Origin: Rhizomonospora bruguierae
Lineage (GTDB): Bacteria; Actinomycetota; Actinomycetes; Mycobacteriales; Micromonosporaceae
DNA length: 64,000 bases
Reading direction: 5' to 3'
Assembly (NCBI RefSeq): GCF_018397995.1
Contig: NZ_BBQH01000026.1
Coordinates: 1 to 64,000, forward strand
The stretch's first letter is position 1; each line of letters starts with the position of its first letter. Below, piece after piece: positions 10,009 through 20,384 of this stretch. Below the pieces are notes generated by a model, which worked only from the letters and a program-made list of their open reading frames with translations, did not search any database and was not told the origin of the DNA. The position numbers and the translations under genes were made by a program.

Positions 10009-10686
10009 ACTCCCGACGAAGCCGACCCGGGCATCTCCGCGCGCCCGGCGACCCCCGGTCCCGACCGTGCCGGCGAACCCGAGCACGCCACGATCCCGGT
10101 CTTTGTCGACGCGACCGGGCGGCGCAAGCGCGTGGTGCAGGCGGGGGTCGGCGTCCTGGCCGCGGTGGGCCTGACCTATACCGGGCTCGTCGCCCTGAGC
10201 CTGACCCACGGGCAGGGCAGCCCCCTCATCGCCGATCTGGCCAACCCGGTGCGCACCGTGGCGCCCACGCCGGCGCCGACGCGCACCCCGGGGCCGAAGG
10301 CGATGCCGCCGGTTCCCGCGCCGCGGCCCGAGCGGCCGGCGACCCGTACGGGGGTGTGGAGCCAGACCCCGCACACCAAGTCACCCGCGCGGCCGGTGCG
10401 CCCGTCCACGCCCGCGCCGACCCAGCCGAAGCCGAGCCCGCCGACGCAGAGTCCCCGGCCCTCCACGACGCCGACGCCCGGCCCGACCCGGTCCACCTCA
10501 CCCACGCCCGTGCCGACCGCGCCGTCGAAGCGCCCGGCTCCGTCCGCGACGGACGGCAAGACTGATCCGCCGCCGACCACGGCCGGGGCGCGGGCCGAAG
10601 CCACCAAGACGTCCGGCGCCGGGAAGGCCGCCGGCGCCAAGAAGACCACCGCCGGGGCCACCACCGCAAAGGGATCCACTCGCTGA
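10006..10686 (+). CDS. Pro/Thr-rich single-pass membrane protein of the glycan operon
   Basis: A 226-residue protein. A short cytoplasmic N-terminus ends in a basic GRRKR stretch before one transmembrane helix (about residues 47-66). The external part is low-complexity: Pro/Thr/Ser/Arg repeats (residues 85-190) and a Lys/Ala/Thr-rich tail. The stop overlaps the ATG of the deacetylase/glycosyltransferase gene by one base, implying coupled translation. The extracellular stalk could act as a wall-spanning or scaffold element for polymer export; this is inferred from architecture and position. No enzyme motif is seen. Confidence 0.75.
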   Translation: MTPDEADPGISARPATPGPDRAGEPEHATIPVFVDATGRRKRVVQAGVGVLAAVGLTYTGLVALSLTHGQGSPLIADLANPVRTVAPTPAPTRTPGPKAMPPVPAPRPERPATRTGVWSQTPHTKSPARPVRPSTPAPTQPKPSPPTQSPRPSTTPTPGPTRSTSPTPVPTAPSKRPAPSATDGKTDPPPTTAGARAEATKTSGAGKAAGAKKTTAGATTAKGSTR

Positions 10687-12962
10687 TGAGCACCGCCATG
10701 CTGCCGGCGCCGCCCGGCCAGCCGGGCACGCCCCCGAAACTCCGCCGGCGCGTCCTGCCGCGCCCGCGGACCGTGGTCATCGCCCTGCTGCTGCTCGCGT
10801 TCGCCAGCCCGCTGGCGGTCGCCGCGTACACGAACTCGCAGCTGACCCCGGACATGGTGCACGAGGTCGGCGACCAGGACCGGGTGCCGGAGGCGGTCCA
10901 CGACGGGGGACCGATCATCAACGCGACGGGACAGCAGCCCCGGTCGTACCGGCTGCCGCCGAAGACAATCGCCCTCACCTTCGACGACGGACCGGACCCG
11001 TCGTGGACCCCGCGGGTGCTGGACGTGCTGCGCCGGCAGGGAGTCAAGGGCACCTTCTTCGTGATCGGGTCGCACGTCGTGCGTCACCCGGCGCTGGCCC
11101 GCGCCGTCGTGGCCGGCGGGCACGAACTCGGCCTGCACACGTTCACCCACCCCGACCTCAGCACGCTGCCGGCCTGGCGGCGACGGATGGAGTACTCGCA
11201 GACCCAGATGGCGATCGCCAACGCGGCCGGGGTGAAGGCGTCCCTGCTGCGGTTCCCGTACTCGTCCGAGGCGCAGGCGGTGGACAACGCGGACTGGCCG
11301 GTGCTGCGGCAGGCGGGCGGGCTCGGCTACCTCGTCGTGATGGAGGACACCGACAGCCAGGACTGGTCCCGGCCGGGCGTGGACGCGATCCTGCGCAACA
11401 TGACCCCGCCGGACGACCGTGGGGCGATCATCCTGATGCACGACGCCGGCGGTGACCGGTCGCAGACCGTGGCCGCGCTGGACCGGTTCATCCCGGCGAT
11501 GAAGGCCCGCGGGTATCGCTTCACGACGGTGACCGAGGGGCTGAACCTGGCGCTGTCGCCGGGCGGCGGGGCGACCGCGAGGCAGCCGGTCGCGGAGAAC
11601 CCGGCCGCGTCGCCGGCGGAGCGGCGGCGCGGCGCCTCGCTGGTCCAGGCGGTGCGGCTGGCCGACGCGACGATCCTCGTGCTCAAGGTGCTGTTCCTCG
11701 TGGTCGGGCTGCTGACGATCGCGCGTAGCCTGCTGCTGCTCGTGCTCGCCGGCCACCACGCCCGCCGCCGGCGGGCGCCGGACTGGTCCTGGGGGCCGCC
11801 GGTCACCGCGCCGGTGTCGGTGATCGTGCCGGCCTACAACGAGCACAAGGGCATCGCGCCGGCCGTCCGGTCGCTGGCCGGCGGCGACCATCCGGAGATC
11901 GAGGTGATCGTCGTCGACGACGGCTCCACCGACGGGACGGCGGAGATCGTCGAGGGACTCGACCTGCCGAACGTGCGCCTGCTGCGCCAGCACAACGGGG
12001 GCAAGGCCCACGCCCTCAACGCCGGACTGGCGGCGGCCCGGCACGACCTCATCGTGATGGTGGACGCGGACACCCAGGTCGCCGCCGACTCGATCCGCAC
12101 GCTGGTGCAGCCGATGGCGGACCCGGCGGTCGGCGCGGTCGCCGGCAACGTCAAGGTCGGCAACCGGCGTAGCCTCATCGCCCGGTTCCAGCACATCGAG
12201 TACGTGATCGGGTTCAACCTCGACCGCCGTCTCTACGAGGTGCTGCGGTGCATGCCGACCGTGCCCGGCGCGCTGGGCGCCTTCCGTCGCGGGGCGCTGG
12301 CCGGCGTCGGCGGGATGAGTGACGACACCCTGGCCGAGGACACCGACGTCACCATGGCGCTGGGGCGGGCCGGCTGGAAGGTCGTCTACGAGGAGCAGGC
12401 GTACGCCTGGACCGAGGCCCCGGTGGCCCTGGAGCAGTTGTGGCGGCAGCGGTACCGGTGGAGCTACGGCACCATGCAGGCGATGTGGAAGCACCGCCGG
12501 GCGCTGTGGGAACGCGGCGCCTCCGGGCGCTTCGGCCGCCGCGGGCTGCCGCTGCTGGCCGTCTACGGGGTACTGCTGCCGCTGCTCGGCCCGGTCATCG
12601 ACCTGATGGCGGTGTACGGGCTGCTGTTCTTCGGGTGGGGCCCGGCGGCCGGCGCCTGGCTGGCGATGCTCGCGGTGCAGTTGCTGACGGCGCTGGTCGC
12701 GTTCCGGCTCGACCGCGAGCCGCTGCGGCCGCTGCTCGTGATGCCGTTGCAGCAGTTCGCGTACCGCCAGGTGATGTACCTGGTGCTGGTGCAGTCGGCG
12801 CTGACCGCGCTGACCGGGGTCCGGCTGCGCTGGCAGAAGTTGCTGCGTACCGGCGATGCCACCCTGCCGCCCCAGCCGGGCCGGGACGCGGGCCGGGAGG
12901 TGCCCGCGAAGGTGGACGCCGAGGCGGGCTCCGGGGTGAGTCAGGAGGTGAGCCGAACATGA
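10686..12962 (+). CDS. Bifunctional polysaccharide deacetylase / GT2 synthase (MatB-like)
   Basis: A 758-residue membrane protein. An N-terminal helix (about 30-50) is followed by a NodB deacetylase domain (about 95-280) with TFDDGPD (Asp100, Asp101) and the metal-binding HTFTH (His151, His155). After another membrane helix comes a processive GT2 domain: VIVPAYNE, VVDDGSTDGT, DADTQV, EDTDV and the QRYRW motif, followed by C-terminal membrane helices. The same fusion occurs in Streptomyces MatB, which makes a poly-N-acetylglucosamine-like adhesive glycan. It is flanked by coupled genes for a Pro-rich membrane protein and an O-acyltransferase. The product is probably partly deacetylated GlcNAc polymer, inferred from homology. 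Confidence 0.87.
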   Translation: MSTAMLPAPPGQPGTPPKLRRRVLPRPRTVVIALLLLAFASPLAVAAYTNSQLTPDMVHEVGDQDRVPEAVHDGGPIINATGQQPRSYRLPPKTIALTFDDGPDPSWTPRVLDVLRRQGVKGTFFVIGSHVVRHPALARAVVAGGHELGLHTFTHPDLSTLPAWRRRMEYSQTQMAIANAAGVKASLLRFPYSSEAQAVDNADWPVLRQAGGLGYLVVMEDTDSQDWSRPGVDAILRNMTPPDDRGAIILMHDAGGDRSQTVAALDRFIPAMKARGYRFTTVTEGLNLALSPGGGATARQPVAENPAASPAERRRGASLVQAVRLADATILVLKVLFLVVGLLTIARSLLLLVLAGHHARRRRAPDWSWGPPVTAPVSVIVPAYNEHKGIAPAVRSLAGGDHPEIEVIVVDDGSTDGTAEIVEGLDLPNVRLLRQHNGGKAHALNAGLAAARHDLIVMVDADTQVAADSIRTLVQPMADPAVGAVAGNVKVGNRRSLIARFQHIEYVIGFNLDRRLYEVLRCMPTVPGALGAFRRGALAGVGGMSDDTLAEDTDVTMALGRAGWKVVYEEQAYAWTEAPVALEQLWRQRYRWSYGTMQAMWKHRRALWERGASGRFGRRGLPLLAVYGVLLPLLGPVIDLMAVYGLLFFGWGPAAGAWLAMLAVQLLTALVAFRLDREPLRPLLVMPLQQFAYRQVMYLVLVQSALTALTGVRLRWQKLLRTGDATLPPQPGRDAGREVPAKVDAEAGSGVSQEVSRT

Positions 12963-14134
12963 TCGACACCGTCGGGACGGGGAGCCGATCCGCCACGCGC
13001 GACCGTTACATCGACACGCTGCGCGCCCTGGCGCTCGGCCGAGTGATCATCTACCACATGTTCGGCGTGGCCTGGCTCAGCTTCGCCTTCCCCGCGATGG
13101 GCGTCATGTTCGCGCTGGGCGGCTCCCTGATGGCCGGCTCGCTCGACCGGTCGCCGGAGGATGCCGTCACGAACCGGATCCGGCGGCTGCTGCCGGCGCT
13201 GTGGGTGCTCGGCCTGCTGCTGGTCCCCGCGATGCTCTGGCACGGCTGGCGGGACCACCCGACCTGGCAGACCCTGCTGCTGTGGGTGGTCCCGGTGGTC
13301 CAGCCGCCGGGCAACGAGTGGGCGGCGCCGGTGACCGAGGTGCTGTGGTACGTGGTCGCCTACCTGTGGTTGGTGGTGCTCTCCGCCCCCCTCCGCTGGC
13401 TGTACCGCCGCGCCCCGCTGCGCACCACACTGCTGCCGCTGGGCGCTCTCGCGCTGCTCGGGGTGCTGCCGCCCGTCGCCCACGAATCGGTGCAGTCCAC
13501 ACTGGTCGACCTGGCGACCTTCGGCGCCTGCTGGATCGTCGGCTTCGCCCACCGGGACGGCAGCCTGCGGCGCCTGTCGCTGCCGCTGCTCGCCGTCCTC
13601 GCCGTGGCCTGCCTCGGCGGCGGTGCCGGGTGGGCGGTGACGCACCCCGGTGACGAGGGGCTGGACCTCAACGACATCCCGCTGGCCCAGGGCCTGTACT
13701 CGCTCGGCTTCGTGCTGCTGGTGATGCGGGCCGCGCCGGCGATGGCCTGGCTGGCCCGGGTGCGGGTGCTGGACCGGTTGGTGGGGCTGCTCAACGCCCG
13801 CGCCGTCACCGTGTACCTGTGGCACAACGTGGCGATCGCGGCCTGCTTCATGGTCGGGGACGACGCCTTCCAGGTGTGGCGCCTTGACAACTCCGCCGCC
13901 GGGGCGGCCTACCTGGCCGTCGCGCTGGCGCTCCTGTTGGTCCCGGTGCTGGCGCTCGGCTGGGTGGAGGACGTGGCCGCGCGGCGGCGACCGCGCCTGT
14001 GGCCCTGGAAGCCCCAGGCGGGCCGCGGGGCGGGTCCGGTGCCGGCGCGAACGCGGAGGCAGACCACCGCGGTGGACAAGGCGCTCGCGGCGCCGGCCGA
14101 GGGGGCGACGGGCGCTTCGGGCGTCGCCGGGTGA
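12959..14134 (+). CDS. Acyltransferase family 3 membrane protein
   Basis: A 391-residue integral membrane protein of the OafA/NodX-type acyltransferase 3 family (about ten helices). RYIDTLRALALGRVIIYH at the start contains the conserved Arg and His of the first helix. These enzymes usually O-acetylate surface sugars. The ATG overlaps the stop of the MatB-like gene (ATGA at 12959-12962), so it probably modifies the polymer made there. The C-terminal 40 residues are a basic, Ala/Arg-rich cytoplasmic tail. It ends 13 bp from the convergent glycosyltransferase gene. Confidence 0.85.
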   Translation: MIDTVGTGSRSATRDRYIDTLRALALGRVIIYHMFGVAWLSFAFPAMGVMFALGGSLMAGSLDRSPEDAVTNRIRRLLPALWVLGLLLVPAMLWHGWRDHPTWQTLLLWVVPVVQPPGNEWAAPVTEVLWYVVAYLWLVVLSAPLRWLYRRAPLRTTLLPLGALALLGVLPPVAHESVQSTLVDLATFGACWIVGFAHRDGSLRRLSLPLLAVLAVACLGGGAGWAVTHPGDEGLDLNDIPLAQGLYSLGFVLLVMRAAPAMAWLARVRVLDRLVGLLNARAVTVYLWHNVAIAACFMVGDDAFQVWRLDNSAAGAAYLAVALALLLVPVLALGWVEDVAARRRPRLWPWKPQAGRGAGPVPARTRRQTTAVDKALAAPAEGATGASGVAG

Positions 14135-18326: not shown

Positions 18327-18354
18327 TTGAAAGTTTCGGCACCCTGGCTATATT
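18327..18354 (+). promoter_or_regulatory. Sigma70-like promoter of the quinoprotein gene
   Basis: TTGAAA (18327-18332) and TATATT (18349-18354) with a 16-bp spacer. The predicted start lies about 30 bp before the GTG at 18390, leaving room for the gcaggggg ribosome-binding site. Unusually close to the housekeeping consensus for this window. Confidence 0.55.
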
Positions 18355-18389: not shown

Positions 18390-20384
18390 GTGAGACCTGT
18401 CATGGGCCGAGCGGTGACGGCGGCCGCGGTCGCCGCGGTGTGCGCGGCGGCCACCTTCCTGGTATTCAGGGCGCAACCCGCGGGCGCCGCCGACGAACAG
18501 CCGTGGACGATGGGCGGCCAGAACATCAGCAACACCCGATCCAATCCGAGCGAGTCGATCCTCAGCACGTCGACCGTCGGGGGCCTGACGCTGAACTGGA
18601 GCTACACCACCCGGGGCGACGTGTCCGCGACCCCGGCCGTGGTGGACGGGGCGGTCTACTTCCCCGACTGGGGCGGCTACTTCCACAAGGTGGACGCGAG
18701 CACCGGCGCGGTGATCTGGTCCCGTGCCGTCTCGTCGTACGTGGGCGCCAGCGGCACGGTGGTGGCCCGCACCAGCCCGGTCGTGGTGGGCAACACCGTC
18801 TACATCGGTACCCAGACCGGGGCGCGGGTGCTGGCCATCGACACCGCCACCGGCAACCTGAAGTGGAACACCCAGGCCGACTCGCACCCGGACGCCATCC
18901 TCACCGGCGGCGCCGTCTACTACAACGGCGTGCTGTACGAGGGCGTCTCCTCACTGGAGTTCTCGCACGCCACGGAGCCCGGCTACGACTGCTGCACGTT
19001 CCGCGGCAGCCTGGTGGCCATCGACGCGGCGACCGGGGCGCTGAAGTGGAAGTCGTACACCCTGCCGGACCAGGGCCCGGGCGGCGACATCTACAGCGGG
19101 GCCTCCGTGTGGGGCACCACGCCGAGCATCGACCCGGCCAGCAACTCGATCTTCGTCGGTACCGGGCAGAACTACTCGGTCCCGCAGAGCGTGGAGCAGT
19201 GCCAGGCCAACGGCGGCACGCCGGCGCAGTGCCTGGCGTCGTGGAACCGCAAGGACTCCATCGTCGCGATGGACCTGACCACCGGCGCGATCAAGTGGGC
19301 CACCGGGCCGGCCCGCTTCGACGTGTGGAACTTCGCCTGCCTGCAGGGGCCGTCCCCGCAGAACTGCCCGAACCCCGGCCCCGACCATGACACGGGCGAG
19401 GGCACGCACCTGTTCGATCTGCCCGGCCCGAACGGGACGACCCGCCGCGCGGTCATGGCGGGCCAGAAGAGCGGCGACGTGTGGATGCTCGACGCGGCCA
19501 CCGGCGAGATCATCTGGGGTACCTCGGTCGGCCCCGGCTCGACCCAGGGCGGCATCGAGTGGGGCACCGCCAACGACGGGCAGCGCATCTTCTTCACGGA
19601 GAGCAACGCCGGTAACGAGAGCCACCGGCTGCCGAACGGCCAGACGATCAACTACAGCTCGTTCGGCGCGCTGGACGCGCGGACCGGGCAGGTTCTCTGG
19701 CAGGTGCCCGAGCCGCACGGCGGGCGCTCGATCGGCCCGGTCACGTACGCCAACGGCGTGGTCTACGTGGGCTCGATGAACAACTGGATGTACGCGCTGG
19801 ACGCCAACAACGGCCGGGTGCTGTGGCAGTACCAGGGCGCGGGCTCGTCCAACGCCGGGCCGGCGATCGTCGGCGGCAAGCTGTACTGGGGCAACGGGTA
19901 CGCGCGTGGCGGCACCGCCAGCACGCGGTTCTACTCGTTCCGGGTCCCGGGCTCCCCGACGAACTCGCCGACCGCCACGCCCACCGCCACGCCGACCAGG
20001 ACGCCGACCGCCTCCCCGACCGTCTCGCCGACGGTGTCACCGACGGTCTCCCCGACCGTCCCGCCGACGACGCCGCCGAACGGCGCGTGCGGCGCCACGT
20101 ACGTCATCGTCAACCAGTGGCCGGGCGGGTTCCAGGCCGAGGTGACGGTGCGTGCCGGCAGCCGGGCGATCAACAACTGGACCGTCACGTGGACGTTCGC
20201 CAACGGCCAGACGGTCTCGCAGTTCTGGAGCGCCACCATGACCACCAGTGGCGCCAACGTCACCGCGCAGAACGTCTCCTACAACGGCGCGGTGCCGGCC
20301 AACGGCAGTACCTCGTTCGGCTTCCTCGGTGCCTTCACCGGGAGCAGCAACGCGGTTCCGACCCTCACCTGCGCCGGCTCGTAA
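18390..20384 (+). CDS. Secreted PQQ-type beta-propeller protein with C-terminal CBM2
   Basis: A 664-residue exported protein. The Sec signal peptide ends near AQPAGAADEQ (about residue 34). The propeller domain (about 35-515) has repeated quinoprotein blades such as TGAVIWSR, TGNLKWNT, TGALKWKS and NGRVLWQYQG. A vicinal Cys pair in GYDCCTFRG is as in PQQ dehydrogenases and polyvinyl-alcohol dehydrogenase-like proteins. A Pro-Thr-Ser-Val linker (about 522-560) with tandem TVSP repeats joins a family 2 carbohydrate-binding module bounded by Cys residues, with binding-type Trp residues in NQWPGG, NNWTVTW and QFWSA. No cytochrome c domain is present. It likely acts on, or anchors to, cellulose or chitin. 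Whether PQQ is bound is not established. The start could also be ATG 18402. Confidence 0.85.
   Translation: MRPVMGRAVTAAAVAAVCAAATFLVFRAQPAGAADEQPWTMGGQNISNTRSNPSESILSTSTVGGLTLNWSYTTRGDVSATPAVVDGAVYFPDWGGYFHKVDASTGAVIWSRAVSSYVGASGTVVARTSPVVVGNTVYIGTQTGARVLAIDTATGNLKWNTQADSHPDAILTGGAVYYNGVLYEGVSSLEFSHATEPGYDCCTFRGSLVAIDAATGALKWKSYTLPDQGPGGDIYSGASVWGTTPSIDPASNSIFVGTGQNYSVPQSVEQCQANGGTPAQCLASWNRKDSIVAMDLTTGAIKWATGPARFDVWNFACLQGPSPQNCPNPGPDHDTGEGTHLFDLPGPNGTTRRAVMAGQKSGDVWMLDAATGEIIWGTSVGPGSTQGGIEWGTANDGQRIFFTESNAGNESHRLPNGQTINYSSFGALDARTGQVLWQVPEPHGGRSIGPVTYANGVVYVGSMNNWMYALDANNGRVLWQYQGAGSSNAGPAIVGGKLYWGNGYARGGTASTRFYSFRVPGSPTNSPTATPTATPTRTPTASPTVSPTVSPTVSPTVPPTTPPNGACGATYVIVNQWPGGFQAEVTVRAGSRAINNWTVTWTFANGQTVSQFWSATMTTSGANVTAQNVSYNGAVPANGSTSFGFLGAFTGSSNAVPTLTCAGS

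Follow-up and report, generated by a model that had tools for sequence, protein, structure and literature searches.

The window analysed here, a stretch of 64,000 nucleotides (64 kb) of Rhizomonospora bruguierae DNA, contains on its + strand an open reading frame (18390-20384, GTG start) for a 664-aa protein, which most probably belongs to the quinoprotein family and is associated with wall polysaccharides. We give an even chance to its being a dehydrogenase that is loaded with PQQ and acts on wall fragments. Computation revealed the architecture and the family of the protein, the linkage of an orthologue to pqq genes in another genome (G034), the fusion of a relative to GH10, and a host genome in which no PQQ genes were found. 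The likelihoods that we give to the dehydrogenase reading and to the three alternatives discussed below overlap in part. A literature search, judged by titles and the openings of abstracts, found no publication on this protein. The features are the following:

18329-18337, + strand: GAAAGTTTC palindrome, candidate operator of a repressor, its end 52 nt from the start codon (pattern search)
18390-20384, + strand: whole ORF with signal-like segment, propeller, linker and CBM2 (ORF, Pfam, GC3)
18390-18488, + strand: putative Sec-type signal-like segment, residues about 1-33 (sequence reading)
18489-19949, + strand: PQQ_2/PQQ propeller, residues 34-520, probably eight-bladed (Pfam, alignment, AF2, Foldseek, VIA-align)
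18990-18995, + strand: vicinal Cys201-Cys202, family-specific, other than the canonical PQQ-site pair (21-protein alignment)
19320-19391, + strand: loop D311-V-W-N314 ... GPD332-H-D334, family-specific, WD / WDxD in canonical enzymes (alignments)
19950-20087, + strand: Thr/Ser/Pro-rich linker (direct reading)
20088-20372, + strand: CBM2, residues 567-661 (PF00553, phmmer to 1exg)

The ORF has a GC3 of 0.96. Its propeller matched the Pfam families PQQ_2 (3.6e-30) and PQQ (2.2e-26), and the C-terminal module matched CBM_2 (2.1e-24) with 86.2 bits against a gathering score of 24, which places it in CBM2. In the comparison with 1exg (phmmer, 5.3e-18) the Trp residues of NQW and QxW are retained and the third place is occupied by Tyr; we take these to be the surface Trp positions, two of three being kept as Trp. 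Read directly from the sequence, the protein starts with the putative signal-like segment MRPVMGRAVTAAAVAAVCAAATFLVF...AGA-ADEQ, and the propeller is joined to CBM2 by the linker TATPTATPT...TVSPTVSPTVSP. Pfam detected no cytochrome domain. The quinoprotein-type propeller tethered to a CBM2, which had been proposed in a sequence-only reading of this DNA, was thus borne out by the Pfam matches, the signal-like start and the Thr/Pro linker.

Sequence search, alignment and hhalign all relate the propeller over its full length to PQQ enzymes. If designed repeat propellers are set aside, the sequence relatives of solved structure nearest to it are 4mh1, a sorbose dehydrogenase, and 1yiq, a quinohaemoprotein alcohol dehydrogenase; in a profile search against the PDB the designed repeat propellers came top, with 4mh1 and 1kv9 lower. 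The protein scored 90.9 bits with TIGR03075 (PQQ methanol/ethanol dehydrogenase; curated cut-off 480) and 86.4 bits with TIGR04528 (acido-empty-quinoprotein group A; curated cut-off 650). Both scores are under the cut-off, and by the curators' standard the protein therefore lies outside both families.

An AF2 model of the propeller, computed from a 4-row alignment, had a pLDDT of 66.4 and a pTM of 0.73, with pLDDT <50 at model residues 276-304, the suspected active-site loop. Foldseek with this model ranked quinohaemoprotein/PQQ alcohol dehydrogenases first (1kv9, E 6.2e-24), with BamB close behind. In VIA-align a designed propeller (Cake8) and BamB eight-bladed propellers led (Z 39.5 to 33.2 over the best 50 rows), and none of these 50 rows was a PQQ dehydrogenase, a listing which by the tool's own note cannot exclude one. 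Because Foldseek favours PQQ alcohol dehydrogenases but VIA-align designed and BamB propellers, the AlphaFold model is informative on the fold and not on the cofactor.

The cofactor pocket was compared in a MAFFT alignment of 21 proteins, 18 family members and three canonical-type references. The canonical Cys-Cys pair preceding NRG was missing from all 18 aligned family members and present in two of the three references. The vicinal Cys pair that the sequence-only reading had pointed out in the PQQ-type propeller does exist, but Cys201-Cys202 (motif YDCCTFRGS) is located in a later blade than the canonical pair, and the alignment rules out its identity with the pair of methanol/ethanol dehydrogenases. 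A pair of the YDCCTFRGS type also occurs in the Sphingopyxis 113P3 protein that resembles PVA dehydrogenase and in the EbN1 protein, and is missing from the homologue encoded in a Streptomyces pqq cluster; the comparison does not support the pair as an indicator of a PQQ site.

Other residues of the pocket are better preserved. Arg127, Thr172, Trp241 and Lys360 align with residues of the canonical enzymes, which we take to be PQQ-pocket residues. None of the four varies among 12 family sequences, and neither do D311, D332 and D334. In the Sphingopyxis 113P3 protein the counterpart of Arg127 is not kept, and position 334 is Ser. The first-blade Glu of canonical enzymes is missing from the window protein in the alignment, and the position of the metal-ligand Asn is occupied by Gln260 in the window clade, the pqq-linked G034 copy included. 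The Asp of the catalytic W-D aligns to Asn314 (hhalign) or to D332 (MAFFT), the register being ambiguous and the model pLDDT <50 there. Position 314 varies among family members, with Met in the protein from the Streptomyces pqq cluster, and D332 of the GPD motif is therefore our preferred candidate for the catalytic base. By analogy with XoxF, the conserved PD-x-D might favour a lanthanide.

Three known systems share parts of this pattern. The TIGR03075 enzymes (1kv9, 4mh1) have the fold and the aligned Arg, Thr, Trp and Lys in common with the window protein, but differ in the Cys pair, the Asn ligand and probably the W-D, and the window protein scores far under their cut-off. HEP81_RS39340 of S. 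griseofuscus plasmid pSGRIFU1 (39% identity) is an actinomycete propeller without a cytochrome domain and without the canonical Cys pair, and has the same (A/G)PDxD loop as the window protein. It differs in having pqqABCDE in the same polyketide cluster and in lacking both CBM2 and the family CC pair; the cluster is presumably of the lankacidin type, and an S. rochei enzyme presumably its counterpart. LH20_RS22175, the plasmid-encoded PVA-dehydrogenase-like quinohaemoprotein of Sphingopyxis 113P3 (29% identity over the propeller), shares CC(T/K)FRG and the GPD loop, but carries a cytochrome domain at its N-terminus, and a cytochrome c is encoded separately close by. The 113P3 genome paper places the characterised pva operon both on a megaplasmid and on the chromosome, and LH20_RS22175 may for this reason be a paralogue.

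The propeller was found at E<=1e-60 in 18 of the 354 genomes of the host's family (the window genome included), and at E<=1e-40 in two genomes of a phylum sample (n=396, window genome included), the window's own and one other. In a tree of 33 proteins the window protein falls in an 11-member clade with 100/100 support. Six members of the clade carry CBM2 (window, Acrocarpospora catenulata, G047, Phytohabitans, G034 and G057), the Herbidospora member carries GH10, and four are without CBM2 (G031, G046, G520 and G577). A CBM2-bearing copy from Acrocarpospora corrugata (L022:1-2010) was omitted from the tree because its reading frame is split; the split is near the contig end and is due to sequencing error or decay. 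The nearest group outside the clade consists of the paralogue from the window genome together with four further members, followed further out by Streptomyces and Paraburkholderia proteins and beyond these by the cytochrome-bearing proteins of Sphingopyxis 113P3 and EbN1; the deep joins have long branches and are unsure.

A search of the host genome for pqq genes, suggested with the sequence-only reading, came back empty: in the assembly (98.2% complete, 182 contigs) no match to pqqC was found, and for pqqE none over the cut-off, with five weak matches below it. The positive controls, the S. griseofuscus and Paraburkholderia plasmids, were detected in the same searches. In the joint test of 16 genomes or records, pqqC and pqqE over the cut-off were found in three (G034 and the two control plasmids), and in none of the window genome, 10 of the 11 other genomes bearing a relative (two of them <90% complete) and two plasmid records. 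Genes for PQQ biosynthesis do occur in actinomycetes: pqqC over the cut-off is found in 22 of the 354 family genomes, and pqqABCDE on Streptomyces griseofuscus plasmid pSGRIFU1.

Linkage to PQQ synthesis was found in G034. Its CBM2-bearing orthologue (69% identity; L047:6171-8096, - strand) is located about 2 kb from pqqC, pqqD-pqqE and pqqB, with one alpha/beta-hydrolase gene between; immediately before pqqC is a peptide which, going by its motif, we call PqqA-like. This orthologue is the sole TIGR03075 match at E<=1e-10 in the G034 genome. The linkage is indirect support for the use of the cofactor. In G034 pqqD and pqqE form one frame (L047:10781-12250), and in 14 of the family's 19 other pqq loci a single match spans both.

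The comparison covered these 19 loci, out of 27 other genomes with pqqC. None has a propeller of this type within about 9 kb, and nine have canonical-type quinoproteins. Of the 354 genomes, the propeller (E<=1e-60) is encoded in 18 and pqqC at E<1e-60 in 28 (22 over the cut-off); the two occur together in three (G034, G548 and G559; about 1.4 expected), with pqqC over the cut-off only in G034. As support for cofactor use, family-wide co-occurrence is not persuasive at these numbers. Because none of the 19 loci is linked to the propeller and strong pqqC is found in only three of the 18 propeller genomes, most members must scavenge PQQ or do without it. Gram-negative bacteria that do not make PQQ have been documented to use PQQ from their environment (PMC12124388).

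Doing without it is the main alternative, which we consider quite possible though not probable: a cofactor-free, quinoprotein-like propeller with a decayed PQQ site, serving as a wall-polysaccharide-binding scaffold or adaptor that places xylanases, esterases or LPMOs. It would fit the failure to find a PQQ pathway in the window genome, but the orthologue in G034 is linked to pqq genes, and another TIGR03075-type match is absent there. It would also fit the poor conservation of the canonical Cys pair and the metal-ligand Asn, but the Streptomyces pqq-cluster relative likewise lacks that pair, and the pocket Arg, Thr, Trp and Lys and the GPDxD aspartates are invariant in the 12 sequences. Further points on its side are the nearly equal scores for acido-empty-quinoprotein group A and the PQQ family (86.4 vs 90.9 bits), and the superposition of the model, best on BamB-like propellers in VIA-align.

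The gene surroundings of some relatives suggest a link to xylan. In Herbidospora mongoliensis (L021) a same-strand row encodes a glucuronoyl esterase (CE15)-ricinB protein, a CE4-type deacetylase-ricinB protein, a propeller-GH10-ricinB protein in one frame, and a GH30-ricinB protein. GH10 adjoins the propeller in G046 and is 2.7 kb off in G577, and a CE4-CBM2 gene is 3.4 kb away in G057 and 4.4 kb in G031. Counting the 11 clade members and A. corrugata, xylan genes (GH10/CE4) are in or near the propeller in 5 of 12. In the other seven no GH10/CE4 of the types looked for was found nearby; the A. corrugata contig ends at the gene, and for the window ten neighbours were scanned. None of five more distant propeller loci had such genes.

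The window's own neighbours, as a polysaccharide context, are suggestive only. Upstream, GT2 fused to a deacetylase is accompanied by an acyltransferase, by a glycosyltransferase of EryCIII/UDPGT-like type on the opposite strand, and by GH3 and GT4; downstream, the opposite strand encodes an ABC transporter that includes a family-3 binding protein. The polysaccharide deacetylase-GT2 synthase fusion and the acyltransferase that follows it (10686-14134) look like an exopolysaccharide-making pair.

The palindrome preceding the window gene may provide a second connection. In the 64-kb window GAAANTTTC has a single match, at 18329-18337 (0.01 expected), and genome-wide it occurs at 12 places (three for the reversed-pattern control). 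Of the 11 places besides that of the window gene, two are in front of frames for GH115 and GH10, and one is beside a CBM2 frame. At the remaining eight no link to xylan or CBM was found, the frames being HisKA, MurT, permease or unknown/coding (Pfam search of seven proteins). Among 16 scanned upstream stretches the motif was present in three, those of the window gene, the A. catenulata gene and the G046 GH10 gene; A. catenulata has two copies around the called start, upstream of the signal segment. We first picked the motif and then tested one pattern genome-wide, and the evidence is partly post hoc; with this in mind, we regard the palindrome as a moderately strong sign of co-regulation. CsnR, a ROK repressor, has an operator with the same core at the chitosanase genes of actinomycetes (PMC3048496). 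At L129 (G000:C15:14628) a CsnR-operator-like CAGGAAACTTTCCTA box is beside a frame with CBM2 minus its first 25 positions. A CebR-like pattern, GAGCGCTC, was absent from the 16 upstream stretches.

Taken together, the fusions, the neighbours and the shared promoter element suggest recruitment of the propeller to (glucurono)xylan/cellulose work. In the PQQ-loaded dehydrogenase that we prefer, secretion, PQQ binding, the substrate class and the electron acceptor are inferred. The apo-protein would leave the cell by Sec and fold outside, where CBM2 would hold it on cellulose; there it would take up a metal and PQQ, the latter presumably environmental because the PQQ pathway was not found in its own genome. 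The Sec-like signal makes such loading outside the cell plausible. The holo-protein would then oxidise an alcohol or hemiacetal of a cell-wall fragment, such as a xylan/uronate oligosaccharide or a lignin-linked alcohol, and pass the electrons to soluble quinones or phenoxyl radicals, to O2 (giving H2O2) or to the copper of AA10 LPMOs.

The search for LPMOs that the sequence-only reading had suggested was successful: five AA10 proteins over the cut-off are encoded in the window genome, and for four of these a CBM2 match was found in the neighbouring stretch of the same-length frame. The genome holds 35 further matches to the linker/CBM2 part of the window protein. The known CBM2-bearing redox proteins Cbp2D and Cbp2E have cytochrome/YceI-type modules and are not known to contain a propeller. 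The consulted part of a report on Cellvibrio describes them as important for growth on insoluble cellulose (PMC12542752).

The protein might have a narrower function and serve specifically to supply AA10 LPMOs on cellulose with electrons or H2O2, as a bacterial counterpart of the fungal AA12-CBM1 pyranose dehydrogenase. AA12 is a different, six-bladed propeller, and fungi are not known to synthesise PQQ. CcPDH, an AA12 protein, is by analogy only a precedent: it is an extracellular PQQ dehydrogenase with a C-terminal CBM1, which drives LPMO action and is less efficient without its CBM1, but it carries an AA8 haem b domain that is needed for LPMO activation, as stated in the consulted part of the paper (PMC5960967), and the window protein has no haem domain. 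The five AA10 proteins, four apparently with CBM2, are in line with such a donor; no LPMO was found among the scanned neighbour proteins of the propeller loci, and the genomic links that were found point to xylan enzymes, which makes this alternative unlikely.

The dehydrogenase reading can be widened to a new bacterial class of auxiliary redox proteins, which we regard as doubtful on present comparisons: a CBM2- or GH10-tethered quinoprotein, co-regulated with glucuronoxylan genes and assembled outside the cell with PQQ from neighbours, might feed electrons or H2O2 to AA10 LPMOs or oxidise lignin-linked alcohols freed by the glucuronoyl esterase. Dedicated protein redox partners of bacterial LPMOs are described as an open question in the consulted part of PMC10154616. 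A PQQ-type propeller on CBM2, and on GH10 in a glucuronoxylan row, is a candidate redox partner in cellulolytic actinomycetes. Should the protein acquire scavenged PQQ extracellularly, this cofactor would act as a common resource during the decay of biomass in soil.

Very unlikely is an alcohol dehydrogenase for small molecules or natural products, with CBM2 only for retention near the mycelium or substrate and the relatives' xylan neighbours incidental, since the two Streptomyces relatives in polyketide clusters, the paralogue with its adjacent AMP-binding enzyme, and, upstream of the window gene, the glycosyltransferase of EryCIII/UDPGT-like type at 3 kb and a P450-type fragment at about 9 kb are opposed by the Herbidospora GH10 fusion and CE15-CE4-GH30 row, by GH10/CE4 within 5 kb in four more genomes, and by a third Streptomyces relative around which no polyketide genes were found in 17 kb.

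Among 24 pattern matches in viral contigs none was a relative of the propeller. The paralogue in the window genome (L052:8983-10701, G000:C78; 51%) is a propeller without CBM, has the AMP-binding enzyme directly upstream, and is possibly a natural-product tailoring enzyme. In a distant relative (L065, G547:C5) the propeller is in one frame with a right-handed beta-helix (NosD/Beta_helix).
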